The position numbers were made by a program, and so were the translations under genes. A stretch of 64,000 bases of DNA from Malus domestica (lineage: Eukaryota; Streptophyta; Magnoliopsida; Rosales; Rosaceae), in the NCBI RefSeq assembly GCF_042453785.1, contig NC_091673.1, positions 11,441,501 through 11,505,500 of the forward strand, in the 5' to 3' direction. This document shows, one piece after another, positions 2,198-62,261 of this stretch. The notes under the pieces are model-generated. The model did not search any database and was not told the origin of the DNA. It saw nothing but the letters and a program-made list of their open reading frames with translations. Numbering within the stretch: position 1 is the stretch's first letter; each line of letters opens with the position of its first letter.

Positions 2198-3240
2198 CCC
2201 ACCATCGAGGAAGTAGGAAGAACCAGTAGTGTGATTGAGATATGAGGTTTTGATAGAAAGTGAAGGAGAATGGCGCCGTCGTCAAGAAGGGGTGTTTCGG
2301 ATTAGCCACCTCAGCAGCCACTGCGGAGGCGAATAACTCGAACCCAGACTGCCGGGAACCTCGGGGAGACGGCTTTCGACAATGAGATTGTGCCATCGTC
2401 CCTTGTCGAAATCATCCTCATTCTTCATGTTGCCAATAAAGTCGAAACCAACAATCCTAGAGTTGCTTAGCTCTCTCTGAACTCCCACGTCCATGGCAGA
2501 CCCAACCGACGTCTCAGCCGGAATGTGCACACCACTTGCCTTGCCGTGACGGAGCCTGAAGTTTCGGCTCTCGAGCTCTCCGTCGGAGTTCCCCTGGACA
2601 GGTTGCCGTCGTCCAAGGCACAGGTTGCCGTCGTCCAAGACACAGGTTGCCGTCGGAGTTTCCCTGTCAGAGTTTCCCTGAAGTTCCACAGGCCGGAGTT
2701 TCCCTGGATAGTTTCTCACAGATGGATAAAAGTCCTGATCAAACAAGGGGTCAAGGCAACGACGAATCCTTTAAAGTATACATTATCTATCTGTCGTACT
2801 TCGAAGCTATTATCACAATGAGCAGAAGCTAGACTCGAAGAACAGAGAGCTGCTGATGTGGGCTCTGGTCAAGGTGGATCTCAAAACTCAAAATCTGCAG
2901 AAGAACATCAATCAAGAAAAACAAGTGTTGTCACTTTAGAGAAAAGGAATACAGAAAGCAAAAGCAATGAGCGGGGAGATCAAGAAAAGCAAAAGATAAG
3001 CTTCCTATTAATTCTATCATGATTCCTTTTGTCTGCCAGGTGGAGAGACATAAAGAAAAGCAAGAAAAGCAAGTGGGTGGTGTCAAGGCTATCCAGGCAG
3101 CTGTTACGTTTTACAGGAGAACATGCAGGAAATGGAAAAGAGAAAGTAAAAGCAAAAGCAATAGCAGAAAGCAAAAGAAGATAAAAAGAAGCAGACATAA
3201 TTGCGATGCTGATGGCCTGCAGAATAAGGAATTATAAGCA
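2198..3240. other. Unassigned segment with possible gene-derived sequence
   Basis: No gene is recognised. The block 2260-2720 is GC-richer than its surroundings and has an open frame on the minus strand (2282-2746, 154 codons) with no identifiable domain. It holds three short tandem copies of a CAGGTTGCCGTCG-containing unit (about 2608-2660). The block 2830-3230 is purine-rich and unremarkable. It could be the interior of a non-autonomous retroelement or a captured gene piece; neither can be shown. Confidence 0.3.
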
Positions 3241-3448
3241 TGACCCATTGAGCAAAGGGTCAGATTTATTTTTGAATGATGTAATTTATTTTTTGTATCT
3301 TTCGGAGATATCTGTATAAACCTCATCAGAGGGTAAAAAAAAAACGGCAAGCCCAAAATAATGGGTTGCAATGTCATGTGGAGGGCAAAGGCCCATATGC
3401 TCAAAAGAGCTAGGCCTTATGGCTCCAAATTTATTCGGCATCCTGCCG

Positions 3449-3586
3449 CTATTATCACCAACCAGGTGATCAAAAGTACGCACAGTACTACAAAAAATTA
3501 TTCGGCAGCCAGGCCCTCTATTATCACCAACCAGGTGATCAAAAGTACGTCCAGTACTTCAAAATTATACATAAGCATCACTCATG
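3449..3586. repeat. Two-copy 69 bp direct repeat with a palindromic core
   Basis: The unit begins CTATTATCACCAACCAGGTG and contains TCACCAACCAGGTGA, an interrupted palindrome, followed by TCAAAAGTACG and CAGTACT. Copies begin at 3449 and 3518. It leads directly into the next tandem array and looks like LTR or leader expansion of the retroelement cluster. Confidence 0.6.
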
Positions 3587-3775
3587 TCAATCATACATAA
3601 ACATTCATAAGCATCACTCATGTCAATCATACGTAAACATTCATGACCATTATTCATGTCAACATTCATGAGCATCACTCATGTCAACATCCATGAGCAT
3701 CACTCATGTCAACATTTATGAGCATCACTCATGTCAATCAACATAAACATTCATAAGCATCACTCATGTCAATCA
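3566..3775. repeat. Tandem array of about 25-36 bp units (CATAAGCATCACTCATGTCAA)
   Basis: About seven degenerate copies of AAGCATCACTCATGTCAA, some followed by TCATACATAAACATT, are arranged head to tail. Unit length alternates between about 25 and 36 bp, so it is a slipped minisatellite and not a CRISPR array. The region has no credible coding potential. Confidence 0.75.
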
Positions 3776-3912
3776 GCTTCAAAAACTTCATTTACAGAAC
3801 TCCAGCTTCAAAAGCTTCATTTACAGAGCTCCAGCTTCAAAAGCTTCATTTACAAAAGCACTAGCTTCATTTACAAAAGCACTAGCTTCAAAGCTTCACT
3901 TGCAAAGCTTCA
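3776..3912. repeat. Tandem array of AGCTTCAAAAGCTTCATTTAC units
   Basis: About five copies of a 20-30 bp unit based on AGCTTCAAAAGCTTCA follow the previous array without a gap. AAGCTT recurs throughout. Confidence 0.7.
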
Positions 3913-4035
3913 CCTACAAAGCTTCAGTGCAGGGTATACAAATACCGTATCCGAACAACCGCCACTTCGGCCCATACATGGATTCAATTTGAAGTCTCCA
4001 GCCAACAGACTCTATTGACTGAAGACTTGGGGGAC

Positions 4036-4440
4036 TACACTATGTACCATATATTGGGCCTCACGAAAAATACTTGGGGGACTTAGCCCATTATTCATGT
4101 ATTGAGGAGCGAGCCTTTATTCTATAAAAGGGACTCCCTCACTTTCATTAGAGAGCACCCATTATTCATGTAATGAGGAGCGAGCCCTTATTTTATAAAA
4201 GGGACTCCCTCACCATCATTAGAAGGCATCGTCACCTGTTGAGCAACCGCCTCGCCGCGAGCATCAACTCTAGCCCATCATTTATGTATTGAGGAGTGAG
4301 CCTTTATTCTATAAAAAGGACTCCCTCACCATCATTAGAGAGCATCGCCGCGAGCATCAACTCTAGCCCATCATTTATCTATTGAGGAGTGAGCCCTTAT
4401 TCTATAAAAGGGATTCCCTCACCTTCAAAGCCGAGCCAAC
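4036..4440 (+). repeat. LTR-derived array of TATA-box promoter modules
   Basis: The sequence before it (3978-4035) matches the region preceding the LTR at 6881, including the purine-rich ACTTGGGGGACTAC, so a divergent LTR start lies near 4036. From about 4087 a module of CCCATTATTCATGTATTGAG, then GAGCGAGCC and TTATTCTATAAAAGGGACTC, is repeated at about 4087, 4148, 4267 and 4367. Each carries the same TATA box CTATAAAAGG as the LTRs at 4580 and 6881. The promoter part of the LTR has been amplified in place. Confidence 0.65.
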
Positions 4441-4579
4441 CGAGGCAACATAAGCCACAAGCAGACCAGCCTCTCAACATGTGCTACTTCTAGTTGAGCA
4501 TCATTTCAGATTGAGCATCGCCTCATATCGAGTATCAGTTGAAGACGACATCTAGTTACGTCGGCCCACACATGGACTG

Positions 4580-4924
4580 TGTTTATACCATATTTAGGGC
4601 CTCGTATTTAGATCTCGTACAAATACTTGGGGGCTTAAATGTAATTATGTAATAAAGGAAAGGGCAAATATGTAATAAGTGAGGAATCCTTATTCTATAA
4701 AAGGACCCCTCACCCTCACAATGAGAGGAGGCCAATTCCTAAGGCTCCACACCCTCTCAAAGCTCTCACTTTCATTCAGAGCTCTCTTTTCCTCATAAAT
4801 ATAATCAGTGTGGACGTAGCCCAAACCTTGTGTGAACCACGATACATCTTGTGTTATTTACATTACATGCAGATTCACGGTCGGATTTACGTTGTTTCAA
4901 GACCTTTGGTTTTGTGCATCAACA
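4580..4924 (+). mobile_element. LTR 1 of a small retroelement (TGTTT...CAACA)
   Basis: Begins TGTTTATACCATATTTAGGG and ends TTTTGTGCATCAACA. It has a TATA box (CTATAAAAGGA near 4695) and downstream CT-rich sequence with CTCTCAAAGCTCTCAC. Two more copies follow at 6490-6820 and 6881-7261, and an inverted relative is at 44026-44573. It is directly followed by a PBS-like leader. Confidence 0.75.
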
Positions 4925-4944
4925 TTTGGTGCCGTCTGTGGGAA
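4925..4944 (+). other. PBS/leader of the small retroelement
   Basis: TTTGGTGCCGTCTGTGGGAA directly follows LTR 1. A TGGYGCCGTCTGTGGGAA sequence is typical of the primer-binding leader of plant Ty3-type elements, so the element reads left to right. Confidence 0.7.
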
Positions 4945-5297
4945 TCGACACGAAAAGTTATGTCGGTTCTCTTTCATTTTTTTCAGCTCCACCGTGAATC
5001 CGCAGAAACCCAAGAACCCAGAAAACCTTCGTAGACTCTGCAGTTTTAAGAAACCATCCAAAAACCCATTTTCCATCTTTCTATCTTGTTTCTGGGGTTG
5101 TGTGCTTTTTAGTCATTGAGATCTGCATCAAGATGGGTTGTCCTATTTTCGTCATTGGCTTGTCCTGTTTTCTCCCACCTCGCCAGAAAAAGAGCAGCCA
5201 GTCATGACAAGCCCCTAAAATCAAACACCTTCCAATTCCGGTGTCAAAATCTTCAGCTTCATTAGAGTTTGGCTCGGTAGCCTATTACGTTTGAGTC

Positions 5298-5636
5298 ATG
5301 ACAAGCCTCGTGGACCCGCAATACCCGACCAAGCCAGGTGCAGTCGCACGGGCCGCAGATGAAAATAGCAATTCAACCCTCGCAGCACTCCGACAACGAC
5401 CGGTTCAGCGGTGATTTCTCTACATACGGCTCGATTCAGCGGCATCGTTTTGGGTCCAACGATCGATCCCGCCGCTCCTTCTCCATCGAGCACTGCACCA
5501 TCAGCCTCGTTTTCCTCATTTCCCGTTGTCGACTTCCCATATTCTCCTCCATCGTCGTCCCCGGTGAAGAAGCAAATTACGCATTTCGATCAGCTGGCTT
5601 TCAGAGCTTCTCATGGCCAGAACATGAACGCATCCA
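5298..5636 (+). pseudogene. Coding-like sequence captured inside the retroelement (unidentified)
   Basis: GC-rich, codon-like sequence in the retroelement interior, unlike the AT-rich flanks. An ATG at 5298 opens 38 codons (MTSLVDPQYPTKPGAVARAA...) before a stop near 5412. A second frame from 5411 (84 codons) is rich in Pro, Ser and Ala. I recognise no family, and the frames are short and overlapping. It may be one or two gene pieces upstream of the protease fragment. Confidence 0.35.
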
Positions 5637-5925
5637 ACAAGTTCGATCTCTCACCACTCAGCTAGATCTAGCCGTTAGAGGTATCGCCAAGTCGGACTTT
5701 AAACCCATGGAAACCGACATCGGGTTACAGCTCGATGCGGATGGTTTTGAGGGCCCCATCATTTTCAAGACGAGTCATGGTAGTGGCGAGTATTTCTCCC
5801 GAGTCGGGATTTGAAAACCATTGAGTCAGGCCTCCATGGTGCTTGACATTGAGAGTGACATCAGCTGGGTGCAGTGCACACCCGGTGCCGATTGCTACCA
5901 ACAAGCCGACCCTATATTCGAAAAT
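5637..5925 (+). pseudogene. Fragment of an A1 aspartyl protease (ASPG/nucellin-like)
   Basis: The frame shows QVRSLTTQLDLAVRGIAKSD, then GSGEYFSRVGI, then after an in-frame TGA at 5812-5814 MVLDIESDISWVQCTP and DCYQQADPIFE. Plant A1 proteases of this group have EYFSRVGIG and VLDTGSDVxWxQCxPC at the first active site. Here the DTGS catalytic motif reads DIES and the frame is stopped, so the piece is dead. It covers only the propeptide-to-first-active-site part (under 100 codons of about 480) and sits between LTRs, so it looks captured. Family assignment is confident from motifs; the exact parent gene is unknown. Confidence 0.75.
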
Positions 5926-6097
5926 ATGGATGCGAATAGCGCTCATGTCCTGGAGCTTCACATATCTGAGATAGAACAGTGAGATAGAAACATAGATATG
6001 GAAGCTTCACAGCTCTCTCACTGTCCTTGAAGTCGTGGTATTTGTCCCGTCTACGCAAATCCCGGCTCAATCTGATGTTTAAAAGCGTCTTAGAGGC

Positions 6098-6303
6098 CTC
6101 ATTCCAAAAGATCTTGTTGACAGACTGTCATCGCTTCGCAATCAGATTGTCTTGGTTGCAGAGGATACTGGTGGATCTACTATATCTAAACTGCGGCGAG
6201 CATTGGAGGAGTACTTGTCTGTTTTAATTGGGCTCACTAAGAAAGAATATGGTCTGGAAAGATTGGTTGAATTCAAGTGGAAATGTTTGGAGGATGGAAA
6301 ACA
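6098..6303 (+). pseudogene. Fragment of a plant BRO1-domain protein
   Basis: An open frame reads LIPKDLVDRLSSLRNQIVLV, GGSTISKLRRALEEYLSVLI and VEFKWKCLEDGKQ, matching the N-terminal part of plant BRO1-like (endosomal-targeting) proteins. The fragment stops exactly at CAG|GTAAAT, a good splice donor, after which homology ends. The captured DNA therefore appears to include an exon/intron border. Only about 70 of roughly 400 residues are present, with no start or stop of its own. Confidence 0.65.
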
Positions 6304-6435
6304 GGTAAATGGACCATAAAAAAACTAGCTGATCTAGCAGTTGAGGAAGGCATCAGTGCTTTGAAGGACTTTATACCCTACAATGGGGTCTTGAACTTGG
6401 AGGGCGTTCACAGGCCACTGCTAACGTGCAGATGA
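6304..6435 (+). pseudogene. Third short coding-like fragment in the retroelement
   Basis: After the BRO1 piece a frame from about 6306 (KWTIKKLADLAVEEGISALK...) runs some 43 codons to a TGA near 6433. It has coding-like composition but I do not recognise it. It could be another captured exon or ordinary sequence open by chance. Confidence 0.3.
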
Positions 6436-6489
6436 GGGGGAGTCGGGTTTCTTCTCGGGCTAGGGTTCAGTTTCAAAATTTCCAGGTGG

Positions 6490-6820
6490 TAGTGGCCTCG
6501 TATTTAGATCTCGTACAAATACTCGGGGGACTTAAATGTAATTATGTAATAAAGGAATAGGCAAATATGTAATAAGTGAGGAGTCCTTATTCTATAAAAT
6601 GACCCCTCACCCTCACAATGAGAGGAGACCAATTCCTAAGGCTCATCACCCTCTCAAAGCTCTCACTCTCATTCAGAGCTCTCTCTCCCTCAGAAATATA
6701 ATCAGTGTGGATGTAACCCAAACCTTGGGGTGAACCACGATACATCTTGTGTTGTTTACATTACATGCAGATTCACGGTCGGATTTATGTTGTTCCAAGA
6801 CCTTCGGTTTTGTGCATCAA
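6490..6820 (+). mobile_element. LTR 2, 5'-truncated copy
   Basis: Nearly identical to LTR 1 from GGCCTCGTATTTAGATCTCG to GTGCATCAAC, but it lacks the first ~13 bases (TGTTTATACCATA) and begins directly after the captured gene fragments. A TATA box (CTATAAAATG) is present. LTR 1 and LTR 2 are closer to each other than to LTR 3, so they probably bound the gene-carrying element. Confidence 0.7.
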
Positions 6821-6880
6821 CTGACTGAATTTCAAGTCTCTGGCCAAAAGACTCTCTTGACTGAAGACTTGGGGGACTAC
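6821..6880 (+). other. Retroelement 3' internal tail with polypurine tract
   Basis: TGACTGAATTTCAAGTCTC to GACTTGGGGGACTAC immediately precedes LTR 3, and the same sequence precedes the divergent LTR start at 4036. The G-rich ACTTGGGGGAC is the likely polypurine tract. Confidence 0.6.
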
Positions 6881-7261
6881 TGTTTGTACCATATTTAGGG
6901 CCTCCGTATTTAGACCTCCTATAAATACTTGGGGAACTCAAATGTAATTATGTAATAAGTGAAAGGGCAAATATGTATTAAGTGAGGAGCCCTTATTCTA
7001 TAAAAGGACTCCTCACTCTCCTTATTAGGGGAGGCCAATTCTTAGGCCTGAGATCCCCAAAGCCTCTCACCCTCTCAAAGCCTCTCATATTCATTACAGA
7101 GGCTCTCTCCCTCACAATCCTCTCAGAGAAATACAATAATTAGTGTGGATGTAGCCCAAGCATTGGGGTGAACCACAATACATCTTGTGTTATTTACTTT
7201 CTTACAGATTCACAGTCGGATTTACGTTATTCCAAGACCCTTCCGGTTTTGTGCATCAACA
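6881..7261 (+). mobile_element. LTR 3 of the same small retroelement family
   Basis: Starts TGTTTGTACCATATTTAGGG and ends TGTGCATCAACA, 381 bp, with the TATA box CTATAAAAGG. It is somewhat longer and more diverged than LTRs 1 and 2. No clear TSD joins it to LTR 1, so the cluster is probably made of two insertions or a recombination product. Confidence 0.7.
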
Positions 7262-7743
7262 TTGTCCATTCATAATATAATCCCTAAATTAGTACCACTA
7301 TGATCTTCTCCATAATAGGATTACGAGACATGCTTGGTGATAATTATATGAAACCAAATATGTTCTCAAATGCACGAGTAGACATGGTTTTAGTGATAAT
7401 TTTATGATACCCGCAATATTGTAATCGGTCTTTTTATTAATAACTAGCCCCTTATTACCCACTTACGCGTGTGGTAATTGATTTTATTTATTTATTATGT
7501 TTATGTATTAGTAATTTTTTTGTTGTCAAATATAGTAATATTAATTTCATCAAGTAAACTACCCACATAGTGGGTGTTTTGTTTGAAATTTTCAAAATGA
7601 TCTAGTTTTACTATTTTACCCTGGTTAATTAAATTGTTTTGTTGTGAAATTCTTAATTGGCGGGGGGCATTTTTGGCATTTTGAATGTGTCACCTTTTTA
7701 GTCTTCTCACTTTATATAGAAGGCATTTTTTGAATCACGGCGT

Positions 7744-8187
7744 GCTACATGCGACTTACATGTTTTAAATGTATTTATATGCGTAAATTGACAAAAGGAA
7801 CGTTAAATATTTAAAGTAAATGAATAATCTTGGATTATGTTAGAAGAAACCCCTCATAAACCAATTAAAGCAGCTAAATTCATATAATAAAATCGGTCTC
7901 TATAGAATTTACATTAAGAATAGAGAAAATAATATTTAATAAACAATTGATTGAATCACATTATTGCTACATGCGACTTACATGTTTTAAATGTATTTAT
8001 ATGCGTAAACTGACAAAAGGAAAGTTAAATATTTAAAGTAAATGAATAATCTTGGATTATGTTAGAAGAAACCCCTCATAAACCAATTAAAGCAGCTAAA
8101 TTCATATAATAAAATCGGTCTCTATAGAATTTACATTAAGAATAGAGAAAATAATATTTAATAAACAATTGATTGAATCACATTATT
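7744..8187. repeat. Two nearly identical 222 bp direct repeats in the Helitron
   Basis: Copies 7744-7965 and 7966-8187 both begin GCTACATGCGACTTACATG and differ at about two positions (for example GGAACGTT versus GGAAAGTT). They are much more alike than the following units, so this duplication is recent. Confidence 0.85.
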
Positions 8188-9560
8188 GCTAGCTCATTTG
8201 AGGCTAAGCCCACCCCCTCCTCCTTAGTGTAGATAATATCGTTTGTTAAATAAAAACAATCATTTGACAACTACTTTAATCATATTATTATCCGCGTGCG
8301 AAATACATTTTTTATAACCGGCATTACATTTCTCTTAAGACGTTTTGAACGTGTTTAAAAATAGAGAAAATAATATTTAATAAACAACTTATTGAATCAC
8401 ATTATTGCTATCCCATTGTGAGACTAAACTCACCCCCTCCCACTTAGTGTATATAATATCATTTGTTAAAAAAAACACAATAATTTGACAACTAATTTAA
8501 TCACATTGCGTGCGAAAAGATCTTTTTATAACCGGCATTAAATGTCTCTTAAGATGTTTTGAACGTGTTTAAAAATAGAGAAAATAATATTTAATAAACA
8601 ACTAATAGAATCACATTATTGCTAGCCCATTGTGAAAAGCTAAGCCCACCCCCTCTCCCTTAGTTTAGATAATTTTGTTTGTTAAAAAAAAAAATCGTTT
8701 GACAACTAATTTAATCACATTATTATCTGCGTGCGAAAGACTTTTTTTATAACCGGCATTACATGCCTCTTAAGATGTTATGAACGTGTTTAAAATAGAG
8801 AAAATAATATTTAATAAACAACATATTGAATCACATTATTTCTAGCCCATTGTGAGGGTAAGCTCAACCCCCTCTCCCTTAGTGTAGATAATATCGTTTG
8901 TTAAAAAAAAAAATCATTTGACAACTAATTTAATCACATTATTATCCGCGTGTGAATGACCTTTTTTATAACCAGCATTACACGCCTCTTAAGATGTTTT
9001 GAACGTGTTTCAACATGGAGAAATTGAATCACATTATTACTAGCCTATTGTGAGGTACTAATTAAAAACAAAAAAACAAAAAAAACAAACAACCAAACCA
9101 CAAAAAAATTAATTATTAAAAAATACTATTAAAATGATGAAAATACCCATCCCCCTTAGTGTAGATAATATCGTTTATTAAAAAAAAAACTATTTGACAA
9201 TTAATTTAATCAGATTATTATCAGTGTGCTAAAGACTTTTTTTATAACCGGCATTATACACCTATTAAGATGTTTTAAATGTGTTTAAAAATAAAGAAAA
9301 TAATATTTAATAAATAACTGATTGAATCACATTATTACTAGCTCATTGTGAGACTAAGCCCACCCCTCCTTACTGTAGATAATATTGTTTGTTAAAAAAA
9401 ATAATCATTTGATAACTTATTTAATCACATTGTTATCCGTGTGTGAAAAACCTTTTTTGATAACCAGCATTACATGTCTCTTAAGATGTTTTGAACGTGT
9501 TTAAAAATAAAGAAATTGAATCACATTATTGCTAGCTTATTGTGAGGTATTAATTAAAAA
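8188..9560. repeat. About seven diverged 200-220 bp tandem repeats with a SINE-tail-like block
   Basis: Units start near 8188, 8407, 8621, 8841, 9038, 9337 and 9528, each at TGCTAGCCCATTGTGAGGC or a variant. They continue with CCACCCCCTCCCTTAGTGTA, GATAATATCGTTTGTTAAAA, ATAACCGGCATTACATG and AATATTTAATAAACAAC. The CCCATTGTGAGGCTAAGCC...ATATCGTTT part resembles the 3' part of the SINE at 24191-24275. The fifth and last units carry A-rich insertions. Confidence 0.75.
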
Positions 9561-15385: not shown

Positions 15386-18300
15386 TTATTCATCATCTGA
15401 ACTATAATAAATTTCGCTATCGTCGCTTTCGGTCTCCCAATCCTCCTCCTCCATAACTACGTCACCGTCGTCGTTCGGGCTCACTACAACATCGTAACGT
15501 AGAAGATCATTGAGGTTAATTGTAATTGACTGAATTGGTATTTCGATTGAAAACACTCCTTGTATCTGAAATGGTTCTTGGATAAGATTTGTATCTCGAA
15601 GTGTTTCCGCATCATTTTCCATTGAAGATTCTAAACGTTGGTCAGTAACATTGTCGGCGTCGTACTCAGTTGGGTCTTGTTCTAGTATAGCATACACGTT
15701 CATCTGATCCATCTTCTGAACAACTTTCCAACCTCTCCCGGCTTTAGGGTCATCTAGATACACAATCTGTTTTGCCATGTTTGCCAAAATGTAAGGGTTG
15801 TTATCATACCAAGTTCTGTTAATGTTCACATATAGTAAGCCATGGTCAGTTTTAACACTTCCCTGCCTATTTGGGTTTGTATCAAACCATCGACACTTAA
15901 ACATGATCACTTGGTATCGGTCTTTGTAAAGCAATTGCACGACAGTTGTTAGTTTACCATAGAAATCAATGTTCGTACTTCGCCTCCACCTGGGACATGA
16001 ATACCATTGTTTTGCGTACACAACTTGTTATCTCGTGCATTCCCCAAAAACTTGACGTCATTAACATGGCAACCTGAGAACAATTCAGCTCGAATTGGGC
16101 CGAACGTTAAGTTATATAACTCTTCACTGTAAGTGGGAGAATTTGATGCTTTCAATTCATTCACCTAATATTATACAAAAAATAAACATGTTAGTTTGAG
16201 AAAATTAAATACTACAATATATATGTCAAATACAAAACACTTATAACTTACATACTTAAGAAACCACTGTGGAAACAATTATCGGTGTTTCTTGGCATAC
16301 AAATGTGATGGATGTTCTCGCTTCATCATCTCTTTATGCTCATCTAAATATGCTATTATGTCATCACAACTGTTCAGTATGAACCAATACGCTACCTCCA
16401 TGTCATTTCTGGAAAACGACTTTCCTCGTATAGGATATCCAAAGGGTTGTGCGCTTTGGGCAAAAACAGAAAGTTTCTCCTTTCTCACACCCCCGTCATT
16501 ATTGTGCTGAGGACAATTGAAAGCCGTCTCCACATCTTTTAAATACATTCCATAGAAAGTAAGCGACTCATATTGAACCCAAGCTTCTATAATTGATCAT
16601 TCGGGTTTCGCCCTGTTGTGTACACTTTTTTTCAACTCCCTGAGAAGCCTACCAAAATAAAACAATACGATACAAAATAGTAAGCGTAGACTAATGATAC
16701 ATAAACAAATGATGATGATTATATACCTTTCTATTATATACATCCAGTGATAGTTGACATGACCAGCAAGCAATGCCTCTTCAGGCAAATGAACCATCAC
16801 GTGGATCATACTTGTCAAGAAAGTTGTAGGGAATGTCATCTCAAACTTGCATAGTACTTGGACAATGTCATGGCGCAACTGATTAATGTCCGTCTTTCAT
16901 AATGTTCTTGTCGTCTATTGGGAAAAAAAATCTGGACAACATGATTGGCTTCACTGCATCTGCCAGTAATAGGTGTCGAATACCCAAATGAAGTAGGCAT
17001 TGCATAAACACATGGTAGTCATGGCTCTTTAGTCCAGCAAATTTACCTCCGTCAACATTCACACAATGCGCAATATTAGAAGCATACCAATTGGGAAACT
17101 TTACATACGATACAAACTTTAAAAACACTTTTTTGTCATTTGGTTTCATGGAAAAAAAATGCAAGATCCCTCATGGCTTTATCACTATCCCTATTCATCC
17201 ATAAACCCCTATGTATGCCCATTCTTTCCAAATCAAGATGAGCTTTGATCGTGTCCTTTGTCTTGCCCTCGATATCTAGAATGGTGCCCACCAATGTGTC
17301 AAAGATATTTTTCTCAACATGCATAACGTCGAGGTTGTGTCTCAATTTTAGTTTCGACCAATACGAGAGTTCAAAAAACATAGGCTTGTGCGTCCAGTTC
17401 ATATGTGTAGAAGGTCTAGTCTGACTCACTATTTTCCTGAACGGAGCAAAATCCAAACGGTTAAGCTGTTCCAAAATCTGATCACCCGACCATTCCCTAG
17501 GTCTAAGGCGATGTTCTGTGTTCTCGTCAAACTCTTTATCCTTTTCCCACCACTCGTGGTCTTATGGCAACCATCTCCGATGACTAAGGTAACAAACTTT
17601 TTCGGCATGCCAACCAGATGTTACATCATCCTTGCATACATAGCATGCCATATAACCCTTAGTGCTCTACTAAAAAACCATTGCATATGCGGGAAAATCA
17701 TTCACAGTCCACATGACTGATGCCCACAAAGTGAACATCTTCCCAGTGAACTTATCGTATGTGCGCACATCGTTTGTCCATAAATCCTTTAGCTCATTAA
17801 CCAACGGCCTCAAGTAAACATCGATTGACCTGCTAGAATCCTCAGTTATCAAAAGAGTCATCATCATGTATTCTTTTTTCATGCATTTCCAAGGCGGCAA
17901 ATTATATGGGAATAAGAAAATTGGCCAAGTGTTGTGGTGTTGGTTTAGAACCCCGAACGGATTGAATCTGTTAGTGGCAAGTCCCAATCTAACATTCCAG
18001 GGATCAGCAGGAAACTCGGGGAACGTTCGATCGGACTCTTTCCATGCCTCCCCATTAGTAGAATGCCTCATCACATCATTGCCTACCCGTTTTTCCTTAT
18101 ACCATTTCATGTTGGTGGCAGTATGTGTCGACATATACAATCGCTGCAACTTAGGTTTCAGGGGCAGATAACGCATGACTTTTTATGAGATCTTAGTCGT
18201 TCTATTCTGAGATGTCATTTTGAACCTCGACTCATTGCATACAGGGCATTTATCCAATGCTTTATTCTCTTTGTAGAATAAAAACAATTATTTTTGCAAG

Positions 18301-39830: not shown

Positions 39831-40042
39831 AGGAGAGTCTAAATTTCAAGTGGGTTTCCACGTTAGTATTTTGGGGTACACGTAAACACACAAGTGTTTG
39901 GTTCAAATCGCGAGGTGGGTGTCGGTCGATCTCCTTCTCCCAATCCCCCCTTCTATAAATGGCAAACATTTCCCAACCCCTTTTTCTTCATATCCATTCT
40001 CCCATATTCTCCATCAGATCGTATCAGACGGGACACATCTCC

Positions 40043-40123
40043 AGTTTGTGCGTGAATCGAACCCCTTTTAGCCGTCCATCTGTTTGATAGATAATCCAAC
40101 GGTGTTAGATTCACGCACAAACT
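40043..40123. repeat. 16 bp perfect inverted repeat upstream of SLD5
   Basis: AGTTTGTGCGTGAATC (40043-40058) and its exact complement at 40108-40123 enclose a 49 bp loop. It may be a small foldback element in the promoter. Confidence 0.8.
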
Positions 40124-40222
40124 CGTGATCAGTCTCCTCTATCAACACCTTATCTTTCTTTCTTTCCTTCCCTTTTATTTTCTGAATTACTTTTACTTTC
40201 CAAAAAGAAACAAAATTAGCTT

Positions 40223-47485: not shown

Positions 47486-47562
47486 GGCTCCGATGATGGA
47501 TTAAATCTTCGAGACCTGATCATGGAATTGATGATAACTATAAGCATGGTTTCTGAGGATCC
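47486..47562 (+). ncRNA. Candidate C/D-box snoRNA
   Basis: Ordered boxes: C (GATGATGG, 47492), D' (CTGAT, near 47516), C' (TGATGAT, near 47529) and D (CTGA, 47553). They are bracketed by a short terminal stem (GGCTCC / GGATCC with one mismatch). Guide candidates are the bases before D' (AAATCTTCGAGA) and before D (CTATAAGCATGGTT). The upstream site II/telo-box promoter fits. No rRNA or snRNA target has been assigned. Confidence 0.5.
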
Positions 47563-50109
47563 CTTTAATTTTATTTTTTTATTTTTAAGAATTTTAATTT
47601 TAAAAAAAATATTTATTTGGAGTGAGAAAGTATAGATGATGAAGTCAGCACTGGGCTCTGAGTACATTTGATGCACAAATAATGCAGCCTAGAAAGCTAT
47701 TTCTGATATATTCCAACTTCTCTCTCGTTCTAAATCATTTTCTTAGGAGATGGGTCAGCCACTTGAAGTAAACCAGCAGCAAGCACATCAGCAGATCGTT
47801 CCGTTCCATCTCATGGCGATGCAATGGATGTGAACCCCCAACGATCACAACTTCCTGGCCAACATGAGCCATTTTCTTCACCTGAGCGGGACAGATGAAA
47901 CGATCAAACAAAAATATAAGTGGTTTTGGGTTTATGCATCTCAAAGCACAACAACGAAATTACTTCGGAGGAGAAAGTGAAAGAATTATTCTTGCTTCCA
48001 CATTACTCCATGTACTTTCGGGCTAGGCTTCCCCTTCCTTGTGGTCTAACACACAGCACACAACGGAGTACTTGCACCTTAGAGTAGCATGTAACATATT
48101 CTAGCATTGGCTCTTGGAATACTGTCTGGGAAATACCTTGCTTTGATCACTCGAGCCCATAGAGAATTGGGTTCATGTATTAGACGCCAACATTGCTTTG
48201 CCAACAGGACGAGGTTGAACTCATCCCGGTTCCTAAAACCCTTACCTCCTTCCTTTTCACCAAGCCAATAGAAGCCCAACTAACCGAGTGGATTTTGTGC
48301 TCCCCTTCCTTTTGGCCCCACCAAAACCTGACAACTGCCGAATCGATATCGTTGCACAATTTTTCAGGGAAGCATAATACATTCATGGGATATGCAAGAA
48401 TTGTGAAATCTCGTCCTTGGAATTTCGTTATTTAATTTACGTATTTCATATCTATTAGGTTTTATTAACTATATTTTTGTTAATATTAGAATTTTAATTA
48501 TTTAGTTACAAAGTTTGGTTTTTCATAATTAGTATTAAAGAAAAAAAGAAGAAGAAGAAGAGACTAGAATCTACCAGATGACAGTAGGAGAGAGCCAATG
48601 AGAAAAGAAAGAAAGGATGGGAAATGAGAGAAAGGGTAAGCAGGGGATCTTTGACCCGCACCCTTTTGCGACCCAACCTGGTCGAAAACAATGGAACCTG
48701 TTGGTTCCTCTAGCCAAATTTTGGTGATTTAAGCCGAGCAACCACCTGGGAAACACTCCATGACCTTCCCTTTACCTATTCCACCCAAAAAATTGATGAA
48801 AATGGCTTTGAAATTGTGATACCCGCACGGGTGGGTGCGGGGGTCCCTTGCCATCAATCGACCAATTCTGAAATGATTCCCTTCGATCACCACCGCCTAT
48901 AGCGAGCCCAGGAACAAAGCCCAAACAACTGTAGGGGCGACGGAGCACCGGAGGTGATGGATCGAAGCCACCCATTTCTAAGGTTTCCGGGGGGTTCGAG
49001 GGAAATTAGAGCTTTTTCCGGCCAAATTGGCCTTAGTCATAGGTATGAAATTTGCTCTACTCATTGAGATCTACATTTCTGTGAAATTTGGTAATCTTTG
49101 GAGTTAGTCGGAAAATTGGGTTTCTGTTCGTTGGAAACTGCCACTCGTGGTGGCCAGTGGACCCACAATGTCTTTCTAAGTCCAATTAGATGCCTTGATT
49201 TCATATTTGATATCCATATGATGTGATTTGATTATTTGAACCTAGTTTCACTATGATACATCACTTGATCATTATACGAATCGACAATTCGACCGTTGGA
49301 TCGTCTCCAAACTTTAGTGCGTTATAGCACATAATATTTGAGCACATTAGAAACTGACGGATCGAGAATCTGACATACGGATCCTCCCGAATTGAATATC
49401 TAAGTTTGTAAAACTAATTGTTGACCGCCATTTGAATTGGTGATTGGCGGAGATCTAACCGTTGGATCACAATGAGATTTAAATATCTTGTTCTACGATC
49501 TTAATGAGACTCTTGGGAAGATACGGATATGAAATCCTATATATGAATCTTCCGGATTGAATTATGTAGAATTGTGGACCCCATCTTTGACCGAGAGTTG
49601 ACTTTTGGGCATCATGTCTCGAAACATTCTAAATACTAAAATTAGTACTATAGGAAACTTAAGTGAAGTCTAGTGGGCCTACATTGGATAGAGAGTGAAT
49701 TGAATATATGTGATATGGTTATTACCATGATTTCTTATATTGGTATTATTTGTGAATATGACTTGGTTTTATAATGTGATTTGAAATGTGATTTTATATA
49801 TTTAACCATAGACCTATATTTATTAAACATGATTTGGCTTCTGTATTGATGATGATTGTGAAATGTGATTGATGTGCATATTTGAAATGTGGTTTGATTT
49901 GCATGATTGGTATAATGTGATGAAATGTAAGGGCTAGTAGTGGACCATTAACCCATTGCCATGGGGTTTGTTGTTTCAGAGCTTGTTTCATATCCCATTT
50001 CATTGTTTCATTTCTCGCTTCGTTGATCTGTTCTAAATTTAGTACTTGTGCTTTGTTTCATTTTGTTAAGCCTTTGTAAATTGAGCACTTGGTTCATGTT
50101 TTGTTCTTC

Positions 50110-56480: not shown

Positions 56481-57129
56481 TGAAAGTAAACGGCATTTGA
56501 TTTCTATTTGTTTTTGCGAACGGTTGTTATTGACATTGCAAAAAGTTAATCTTCCTCATACAGCCATATTTATAATAGCAACAACACTGCAAAAATGTCG
56601 ACCTCACTCTAACTTATAATAGCAAGTGCTTAGAAATTGTCCCAATTTTACTACTTAGGTGTTGAGTTTGTAAGAAAATACTTACTCATATACTTATAAT
56701 AACAAGTGCTTAAAAATTAAATAATAAACATGCATATTTAAAGTAATGTTGTATTGTATTTTATACTTATCTTGTTTCTCCCACGTTTTTTGTGCAGCCG
56801 ATGTGGGATATGAAACGTATACAAACAGCAAAGTGTAGATGGTATTGCCAAAAGCTAATTGGAACTTCAATTTGAGAAATAAAAGGGGATAATATATACA
56901 AGTGACAAACTAAAATGGCTGTTTTGACGTTTTTGAAACATTGTGTGAAAATTTAAAAGTAAGGCCCCTAGGCAAATTAAAGGAAGAGAATCTAAAAGCA
57001 CATACGAGCTGGGACGAGGAGAGGAGGTCCAAAATAAAAATGAACATCGCTACAAAATTGGCTTCACACAGATTGATTGGTATTGCTTAATATAGGTTGG
57101 GGAATGAAAACTTAAAACTAGGATTTGGT

Positions 57130-57323
57130 GGGTTGTGCCAGGCCCAAGCAATAGTGCAACGCTTGGACGACACACGAAAGCTCTAGTAGCAAGCTACTAA
57201 AATGAGCTCTCACCCTTAAAAAATTAATTTAATATCATGTGGACTATTGGTCCACGTATCAGATATAAAACTGATAAGAACAGATACTACACTTGATCTT
57301 AGCCAAAAGGCCGAGAAAGGTAT
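57130..57323 (-). ncRNA. U2: U2 spliceosomal snRNA gene, copy 1
   Basis: The minus strand starts ATACCTTTCTCGGCCTTTTG at 57323 and continues GCTAAGATCAAGTGTAGTAT. It keeps the branch-point recognition GTAGTATC, a stem-loop TGGACCAATAGTCCA and an Sm-type AATTTTTTAA, and ends ...GGCACAACCC after 194 nt (plant U2 is about 196). U2 pairs with the intron branch site in the spliceosome. The promoter is complete. A 3' box-like CAAATCCTAGTTTTAA follows. Probably functional. Confidence 0.9.
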
Positions 57324-58215: not shown

Positions 58216-58387
58216 AGCATCTCCTTCAGGCACTTAAGAGAGGCCGTTTCTTTGGTTGGGAACTGTCAATTGTTCCAATAAATACTTGAGTAATGGGCTA
58301 CGTTTGGCTTCTAAATTCTAACCTAAACTGTGATAATACAAAAAACATAATTAGGTTGGGCTGTTAAAGACTAAACTATGATTTGGT

Positions 58388-58581
58388 GGGTTGTGTCAGG
58401 CCCGAGCAGTGGTGCAACGCTTAGATAACACACGAAGTCTCCAATATCAAGTTATTGTAATGAGCCCTCACCCTAAAGAAATTAATTTAATATCGTCTGG
58501 ACTATTGGCCCACCTATTAGATATTAAACTGATAAGAATAGATACTACACTTGATCTTAGCCAAAAGGCCGAGAAAGGTGT
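58388..58581 (-). ncRNA. U2: U2 spliceosomal snRNA gene, copy 2 (variant)
   Basis: The same 194 nt structure as copy 1, starting ACACCTTTCTCGGCC (T2 changed to C) and keeping GATCAAGTGTAGTATC. The stem-loop TGGGCCAATAGTCCA is kept but the Sm-like site reads AATTTCTTTAG, a change likely to weaken Sm binding, and the 3' end is diverged (CCTGACACAACCC). Promoter: USE-like ATCTCACATCG (58645-58655) and TATA GTATAAAAA (58606-58614) at the same spacing. It could be a weakly expressed variant or a young pseudogene. Confidence 0.8.
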
Positions 58582-61713: not shown

Positions 61714-62066
61714 CAAAACAAAATAGAAACAAAGAGGTATTTTGTAGTCATCTATTCTCCAAAGTTAATTTTGGTTGTGCTCAATCAACTTATTTGATGA
61801 ATTTTTTAGAGAGATCTCGTTGTGTTATTTCTCTAATTAGAAGGAATTGCTGAAACGATCTAGAGTGAATAACGCTCTTGCTCGCGTAACCACAGAGGAG
61901 GCAAGTCAGATCATCGATCATCCACGTGCCTCCTAGTGAGGTTTGCTTGGGAGGGTGTCATTACAAATTCTCCATGAACAAACCCCAACTTTGGGAAGAA
62001 CACGAGCGCTTGCATATTCCTGAAGTTGCTTGGGTTGGGCCGTCAAATTTTATACTTTGATTTGGT

Positions 62067-62261
62067 GGGGTGTGCCAGGCCCAAGAAGTAGTGCAACACT
62101 TAGGCGACCCATAAAAACCCCAATAGCAAGCTATTGTGATGGACTCTTCCTCTTAAAAAATTAATTTAATATCATGTGGACCAATGGTCCACGTATCAGA
62201 TATTAAACTGATAAGAACATATACTACATTTGATCTTAAACCAAAAGGCCAATAAATGTAT
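62067..62261 (-). pseudogene. U2 snRNA copy 3, degenerate
   Basis: 195 nt aligned along the whole of copy 1, but the 5' end reads ATACATTTATTGGCC, an extra base is present after GGTT, and the branch-point recognition reads GTAGTATA, not GTAGTATC. A USE-like AACCCACATCG lies at 62317-62327, nearer than in copies 1-2, and the TATA position reads GATAAAATC. Very likely non-functional. Confidence 0.8.

Follow-up and report, generated by a model that had tools for sequence, protein, structure and literature searches.

An apple LTR retroelement holding fragments of two or more host genes, and a family of relatives with constant ends and unlike middles

Here we describe an LTR retroelement of apple (Malus domestica) in whose interior about eight pieces, drawn from separate loci of the host genome, form a mosaic; only two of them could be identified as genes, an ASPG-type aspartyl protease and a BRO1-domain gene. 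The element occupies positions 4580-6822 of the window, the stretch of 64,000 nucleotides analysed here, which lies at C13:11441501-11505500 in the genome searched. We conclude that it is probably a cDNA chimera, made by serial switching of reverse transcriptase from one template to another among host RNAs. Relatives at other loci share its ends and carry different middles. A broader proposal, which we advance tentatively and at slightly short of even chances, is that capture is near-obligatory in this family, synthesis passing from a conserved 3′ block over several host RNAs to the leader, so that nearly every jump would bring a new middle. The original prediction was of a small LTR retroelement that holds fragments of two or more unrelated host genes. 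It is borne out by the ASPG and BRO1 fragments and proved largely right, its BRO1 borders, its inference on splicing and its coding-like pieces being corrected below; the interpretation that accompanied it is partly supported.

Host gene capture by LTR elements has been reported as uncommon and mostly as one gene per element. Constant ends around different multi-source middles, copy after copy, would make the capture mechanism testable, as a single genome would offer dozens of independent events in which to study joints, the splicing state of templates, the choice of RNAs and the sites of switching. If the broader proposal is true, the family continually samples the host transcriptome, including RNAs that are partly spliced, and such a family would also yield chimeric transcripts and false gene models in apple. 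A search by title and start of abstract, with subscription journals mostly outside its coverage, found no paper on a family whose copies each hold a multi-gene cargo of their own.

The element has the LTR pair and the short target site duplication (TSD) of an LTR retrotransposon insertion. Its 5′ LTR (4580-4924, plus strand) is 345 bp long with TG...CA ends, its 3′ LTR (6494-6822, plus strand) lacks about the first 17 bases, and the letters GACTG stand on both sides, at 4575-4579 and 6823-6827. The two LTRs had been called closely similar and are indeed 93% identical, differing by 21 substitutions over an alignment of 328 bases (K2P 0.067). The primer binding site (PBS) foreseen after the first LTR corresponds to a PBS-like tract starting with TGG (4927-4944, plus strand), which adjoins that LTR and is present, with substitutions, in the seven relatives that were aligned. 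The shared leader follows (4945-5075, plus strand), matched by relatives to about 5000-5027 and by two of them, L002 and L003, to 5082-5086. When the flanks of the element are joined they align without a gap to a paralogue in the same window (3964-4062; 86% over 99 bases, 1e-25), which represents the empty site. Duplication and empty site together make 4580-6822 a single insertion and speak against LTRs that flank unrelated DNA by chance. As predicted, gag and pol are missing: no such Pfam domain was found in the tested ORFs of the element or of the cargoes of 25 relatives, and on the ORFs tested the element is not an autonomous Gypsy or Copia element, which requires both. A pattern scan of viral contigs gave no match to the LTR.

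The insertion sits in an older element of its own kind. The 3′ block of that element (3134-4579, resuming at 6823; plus strand), recognised by matches to the blocks of L009 and L018, is interrupted by the insertion, and its 3′ LTR (6881-7268, plus strand) is about 80% like the younger LTRs. Upstream of that block, the ORF 2306-2467 has what we take to be a likeness to the N-terminus of callose synthase, with no Pfam or PDB hit. The rest of the window holds tandem arrays whose units measure about 220, 435 and 496 bp (7743-9560), an ORF on the minus strand (15389-16027) with a DUF4216 match (7e-20), a domain often present in transposon-related proteins, a MIR403 precursor match scoring above gathering (40033-40135, plus strand), adjoining snoR66 and snoR118 (47489-47709, plus strand) and three U2 snRNA matches on the minus strand within 5.2 kb (57128-57323, 58386-58581 and 62065-62261).

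Donor loci were sought with 5086-6490 as query against the 651-Mb genome (19 contigs), which gave 43 candidates, 40 of them scored, and 52 matches; this mapping covers the cargo of 4580-6822 only. The single full-length match was the element itself, so that no second copy of the interior appeared among the 40 candidates scored, and the pieces are not contiguous elsewhere in the genome, as a host source free of LTRs would have them. All pieces are given on the plus strand. Piece A (5076-5201) matches C9:32.334 Mb in two blocks (97-98%) and C10, C6 and C16 in one block (90-96%). Pieces B (5200-5294) and C (5311-5411) have DNA matches at C10:31.762 Mb (94%) and C8:5.126 Mb (90-91%), and piece D (5414-5641) matches two blocks at C8:0.109 Mb (93% and 86%), with weaker paralogues on C3, C7 and C11. 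The ASPG1-type aspartyl protease fragment follows (5638-5925; at the DNA level 5645-5921 is 88% like C13:2.866 Mb), then the BRO1-domain gene fragment (5980-6330; C17:0.376 Mb, 94-96%; coding match 6017-6304), piece F (6326-6443; C7:34.482 Mb, 95%, and several more loci at 90-95%) and piece G (6439-6483; C2:31.868 Mb, 91%). Some of these pieces match repeated loci. Identity to the source is 86-88% for ASPG and most of D and 94-98% for A, B, F and BRO1.

At two joints, 5295-5310 and 5922-5979 (16 and 58 bases), no match was reported; the others show overlaps of 1-13 bases or gaps of 2-7 bases, depending on the alignment. The joints are thus not clean, and switching at short homologies is plausible. 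In the two-block donors of A and D the blocks lie 157 and 89 nt apart, compared with 16 and 10 in the window, and since these donor gaps are not clean introns they give no proof of splicing. The two further coding-like pieces of the original prediction survive only as DNA: six stretches besides ASPG and BRO1 have matches at other loci, but the frames are no longer than those of shuffled sequence, their lengths being reached by 81, 179, 205 and 185 of 500 shuffles, and are therefore ordinary. A third gene in frame 1 of 5359-5634 was considered and rejected, none of 15 candidates appearing at E up to 1, and the pieces other than ASPG and BRO1 gave nothing convincing in PDB or Pfam.

The BRO1 fragment bears most directly on the state of the template. 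It shares 91 of 96 residues with a protein of Malus domestica (P0001, residues 16-111) and contains one stop. The domain had been named correctly; its start had been set at 6098, and the coding match begins at 6017. Nor does the piece end exactly at a splice donor, at 6303, as had been proposed, for the DNA match to the parent spans 5980-6323 or 6330 and runs about 19-25 nt past the donor. Two introns of the C17 gene (L039) are absent from the window. One, of 137 nt and with GT-AG borders, was found by script; the other, of 90 nt, has borders that were read by eye as GAG/GTTTGAAAC ... CAACAG/AATATG. The piece then crosses the next exon and enters the intron behind it (GTAAATAGACCATCAAAAACTAGC in the gene, GTAAATGGACCATAAAAAAACTAGC in the window), of which the first 19-25 nt are kept, from 6305, before the next cargo piece begins. 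In an alignment of 120 BRO1 relatives, the residue preceding this GT is the point where some of the proteins break off or have one residue extra, as at an exon border. The retained donor had been taken to suggest capture of unspliced RNA or DNA, an interpretation that does not hold with the two upstream introns of the parent absent. The comparison of parental intron borders that had been called for, with two introns removed and a third partly kept, argues against an unspliced template; exact removal of two introns together with the kept start of the third indicates that the template was partly spliced RNA. Farther upstream in the gene 340 nt are skipped across 8 shared bases without GT-AG borders, which is either a jump or a splice without demonstrable borders.

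These introns also bear on a DNA transposon origin. Pack-MULE and Helitron elements carry multi-gene mosaics, and such a transposon with gene pieces might sit inside the LTR element. We dropped this origin, to which we give a nearly negligible chance, as a simple scan of the interior gave no convincing inverted repeats with a duplication and no Helitron end; the removed introns, and the same layout in 26 further elements, speak against it as well.

The ASPG1-type fragment is identical to a Malus protein (P0121) at 76 of 96 residues, and its TAXi_N score of 29.5 bits is just below the Pfam cut-off of 30. It has the change from DTGS to DIES that had been noticed beforehand and, in addition, one in-frame stop. 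Its decay exceeds what the age of the insertion predicts, with 12 of 48 conserved columns changed (P 1.3e-4; without the edges 10 of 46, P 1.5e-3), a result that at a doubled rate becomes P 0.03 and 0.10, respectively. Excess decay would also arise if the donor had itself decayed or a closer paralogue had been lost. Changed residues are more numerous in ASPG than in BRO1 (20 of 96 versus 5 of 96; Fisher P 0.002), but a count restricted to conserved columns (12 of 48 versus 4 of 39) shows no significant difference (P 0.10, or 0.24 once edge residues are removed). The cargo may be of mixed ages, captured in two rounds.

At least 39 further loci match the LTR and leader, with 40 of 5,102 candidates scored. 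The other copies expected with the same LTRs and interior thus exist as far as LTR and leader are concerned, but not as a second copy of the chimera. The best 30 of the at least 39 loci form the sample described here; they are ranked by likeness to 4580-6822, where only LTR and leader matched. An LTR pair is present at 26 of these 30, and none was found in the stretches fetched for L014, L017, L022 and L029. Exact 5-bp duplications flank 21 of the 26; in L031 and L035 four of the five bases agree, and in L012, L013 (whose LTR end is extrapolated) and L024 the two sides mismatch. The relatives measure 2.7-4.7 kb in 25 of 26 cases, L012, with an extra insert, reaching 8.2 kb.

The ends of these interiors are constant. 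Their first 85 and last 500 bases match in all 325 of 325 pairs, with median identities of 89% and 90% and median best matches of 82 and 373 bases, respectively. The 27 middles, that of 4580-6822 included, add up to 42,056 bp; with the low-complexity filter on and the pair L012/L024 left out, 2,025 bp of this have a match in any other middle, and the largest match is 224 bp, between L011 and L024. Cargo borders were placed where matches by at least three other copies begin and, on the leader side of the first 17 copies, where any match ends, so that part of this unlikeness arises by construction. The raw match profiles show zero-coverage runs of about 0.8-2 kb inside the interiors, except in the pair L012/L024. 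Median cargo length is 1,439 bp, and L010 has lost most of its 3′ block. Only L012 and L024 have the same cargo; they share their flanks, are about 95% alike and lie 0.8 Mb apart on C15, and look like one site duplicated with its segment rather than two insertions.

Twenty-five cargoes, with L012 left out, were scanned against Pfam, 16 with their two longest sense frames and longest antisense frame (48 frames) and nine with the longest of each (18 frames); any tally by strand is biased because the 16 had two sense frames per antisense frame. Host-type domains above the curated cut-off occur in sense in seven of the 25 (QWRF in L010, Trypsin_2 in L011, PWWP in L015, JAB in L016, MFS_5 in L019, NifU_N in L031 and Ank in L033), and the frames scanned of the other 18 gave no domain above cut-off. 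The L016 cargo matches COP9 subunit 6 (2.9e-34) and that of L031 matches ISCU (7.9e-52), and we take those of L027 and L036 to be bHLH-like and annexin-like. The L033 cargo with the sense ankyrin frame also has a V-SNARE antisense to the element (L033:1535-1930, minus strand); cargo pieces may therefore lie in both orientations.

The constant 3′ ends also allow the end of the present element to be judged. The relatives have a GGGACTAC-like purine-rich end before the 3′ LTR, which is missing in 4580-6822: neither this tract nor the conserved 3′ block stands before 6494. An ordinary element could have been broken near its 3′ end after insertion and repaired with genomic patches, at the cost of the 3′ block and of the first part of the 3′ LTR. 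The loss of block, tract and about 17 LTR bases at the cargo end agrees with such filler, as do the many short patches, the kept start of the BRO1 intron and a BRO1 divergence consistent with the insertion age. Repair with genomic DNA does not account for the two introns removed from BRO1, nor for 26 other elements, mostly 3′-intact, with unlike middles at the same position, and we judge it distinctly improbable.

Template switching onto host RNAs, our preferred reading, would start with the RNA of a non-autonomous LTR element under reverse transcription, host RNA having presumably been co-packaged with it. The minus strand would extend through the 3′ LTR and 3′ block, and the enzyme would exit the element template near the A-rich start of that block, copy host RNAs (BRO1, ASPG and others) in turn, in an order of switches that we infer, and return to the leader beside the PBS. 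The product would then have been integrated, with a 5-bp duplication, into the older element of the same kind, and a later deletion would presumably have taken from 4580-6822 the 3′ end of the interior together with the start of the 3′ LTR. In most of 17 copies inspected the 3′ block begins at an A-rich tract, and 25 of 26 copies (all but L010) have an A-rich 40-mer that starts no more than 250 bases ahead of the border, a count made against a soft border and with no control set. Most of the other middles, too, probably derive from host RNA.

How often capture occurs can be approached through the LTRs. Distances within elements have a median of 0.053 (0.017-0.086), and those between the 5′ LTRs of different elements a median of 0.076 (minimum 0.039). 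As the latter barely exceed the former, most of the distance arose after insertion and the sources were alike when they moved; their cargoes are nevertheless unlike, and we therefore take nearly every round to involve capture. Relatives that keep LTRs, leader and 3′ block around different middles likewise make capture seem tied to almost every retrotransposition, and capture at nearly every round is what we infer. Capture might instead be rarer and older, with many lineages that hold earlier cargo each sampled once here, as the ASPG decay, which looks older than the insertion, and a sample confined to the best loci from 40 scored candidates would allow. That reading is unlikely given how close the two LTR medians are, and given that the same cargo recurs only in L012/L024, with their shared flanks, and no second copy of the 4580-6822 cargo was found.

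Among known classes, TRIMs are very small elements with LTRs of about 100-250 bp, and LARDs combine long LTRs with a conserved non-coding interior. With an LTR of 345 bp and relatives of 2.7-8.2 kb the present family falls outside the first, and with short LTRs and an interior conserved only towards its two ends it falls outside the second. Pack-MULEs resemble it in having copies with different host gene pieces; as far as the available text of PMC4717578 describes them they are DNA transposons that retain introns, whereas 4580-6822 lost two. The TGTT and AACA families of Rosaceae, considered as candidates, have non-TG-CA ends in the available description (PMC5659011), unlike the LTR here, and were set apart on that description.

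In the portion available of the same TRIM study (PMC4717578), 30 gene-carrying TRIMs of Medicago and soybean fall into seven subfamilies, measure 1.2-1.4 kb, contain exons only and, all but two, have at least two copies. The soybean element GmaRetroS15 is similar in being non-autonomous, with a 5-bp duplication and pieces of several genes; in our case no second cargo copy was found, and the element measures 2.2 kb and its relatives 2.7-4.7 kb (25 of 26). For maize, the accessible part of PMC2774510 reports 425 LTR elements with gene fragments, none of which, under the conditions used, combined pieces of two or more standard nuclear genes; these share with 4580-6822 the host gene fragments in an LTR element and differ from it in that it holds pieces of two identified genes. 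Switching to a co-packaged RNA has also been proposed for long Veju and BARE2, of which, in the accounts available, BARE2 joins element sequences and long Veju took unknown DNA, whereas 4580-6822 has identified host genes. Another close system is maize Bs1, an LTR element that, in the available parts of its reports, has pieces of three host genes (PMC13317346) and exons only (PMC4717578). Like Bs1, 4580-6822 holds pieces of unrelated host genes, ASPG and BRO1, between its LTRs, and donor introns are removed, in BRO1 only, where two are absent and the third partly kept. It differs from what is described of Bs1 in mixing about eight loci, in keeping part of an intron and in having relatives each with another cargo.
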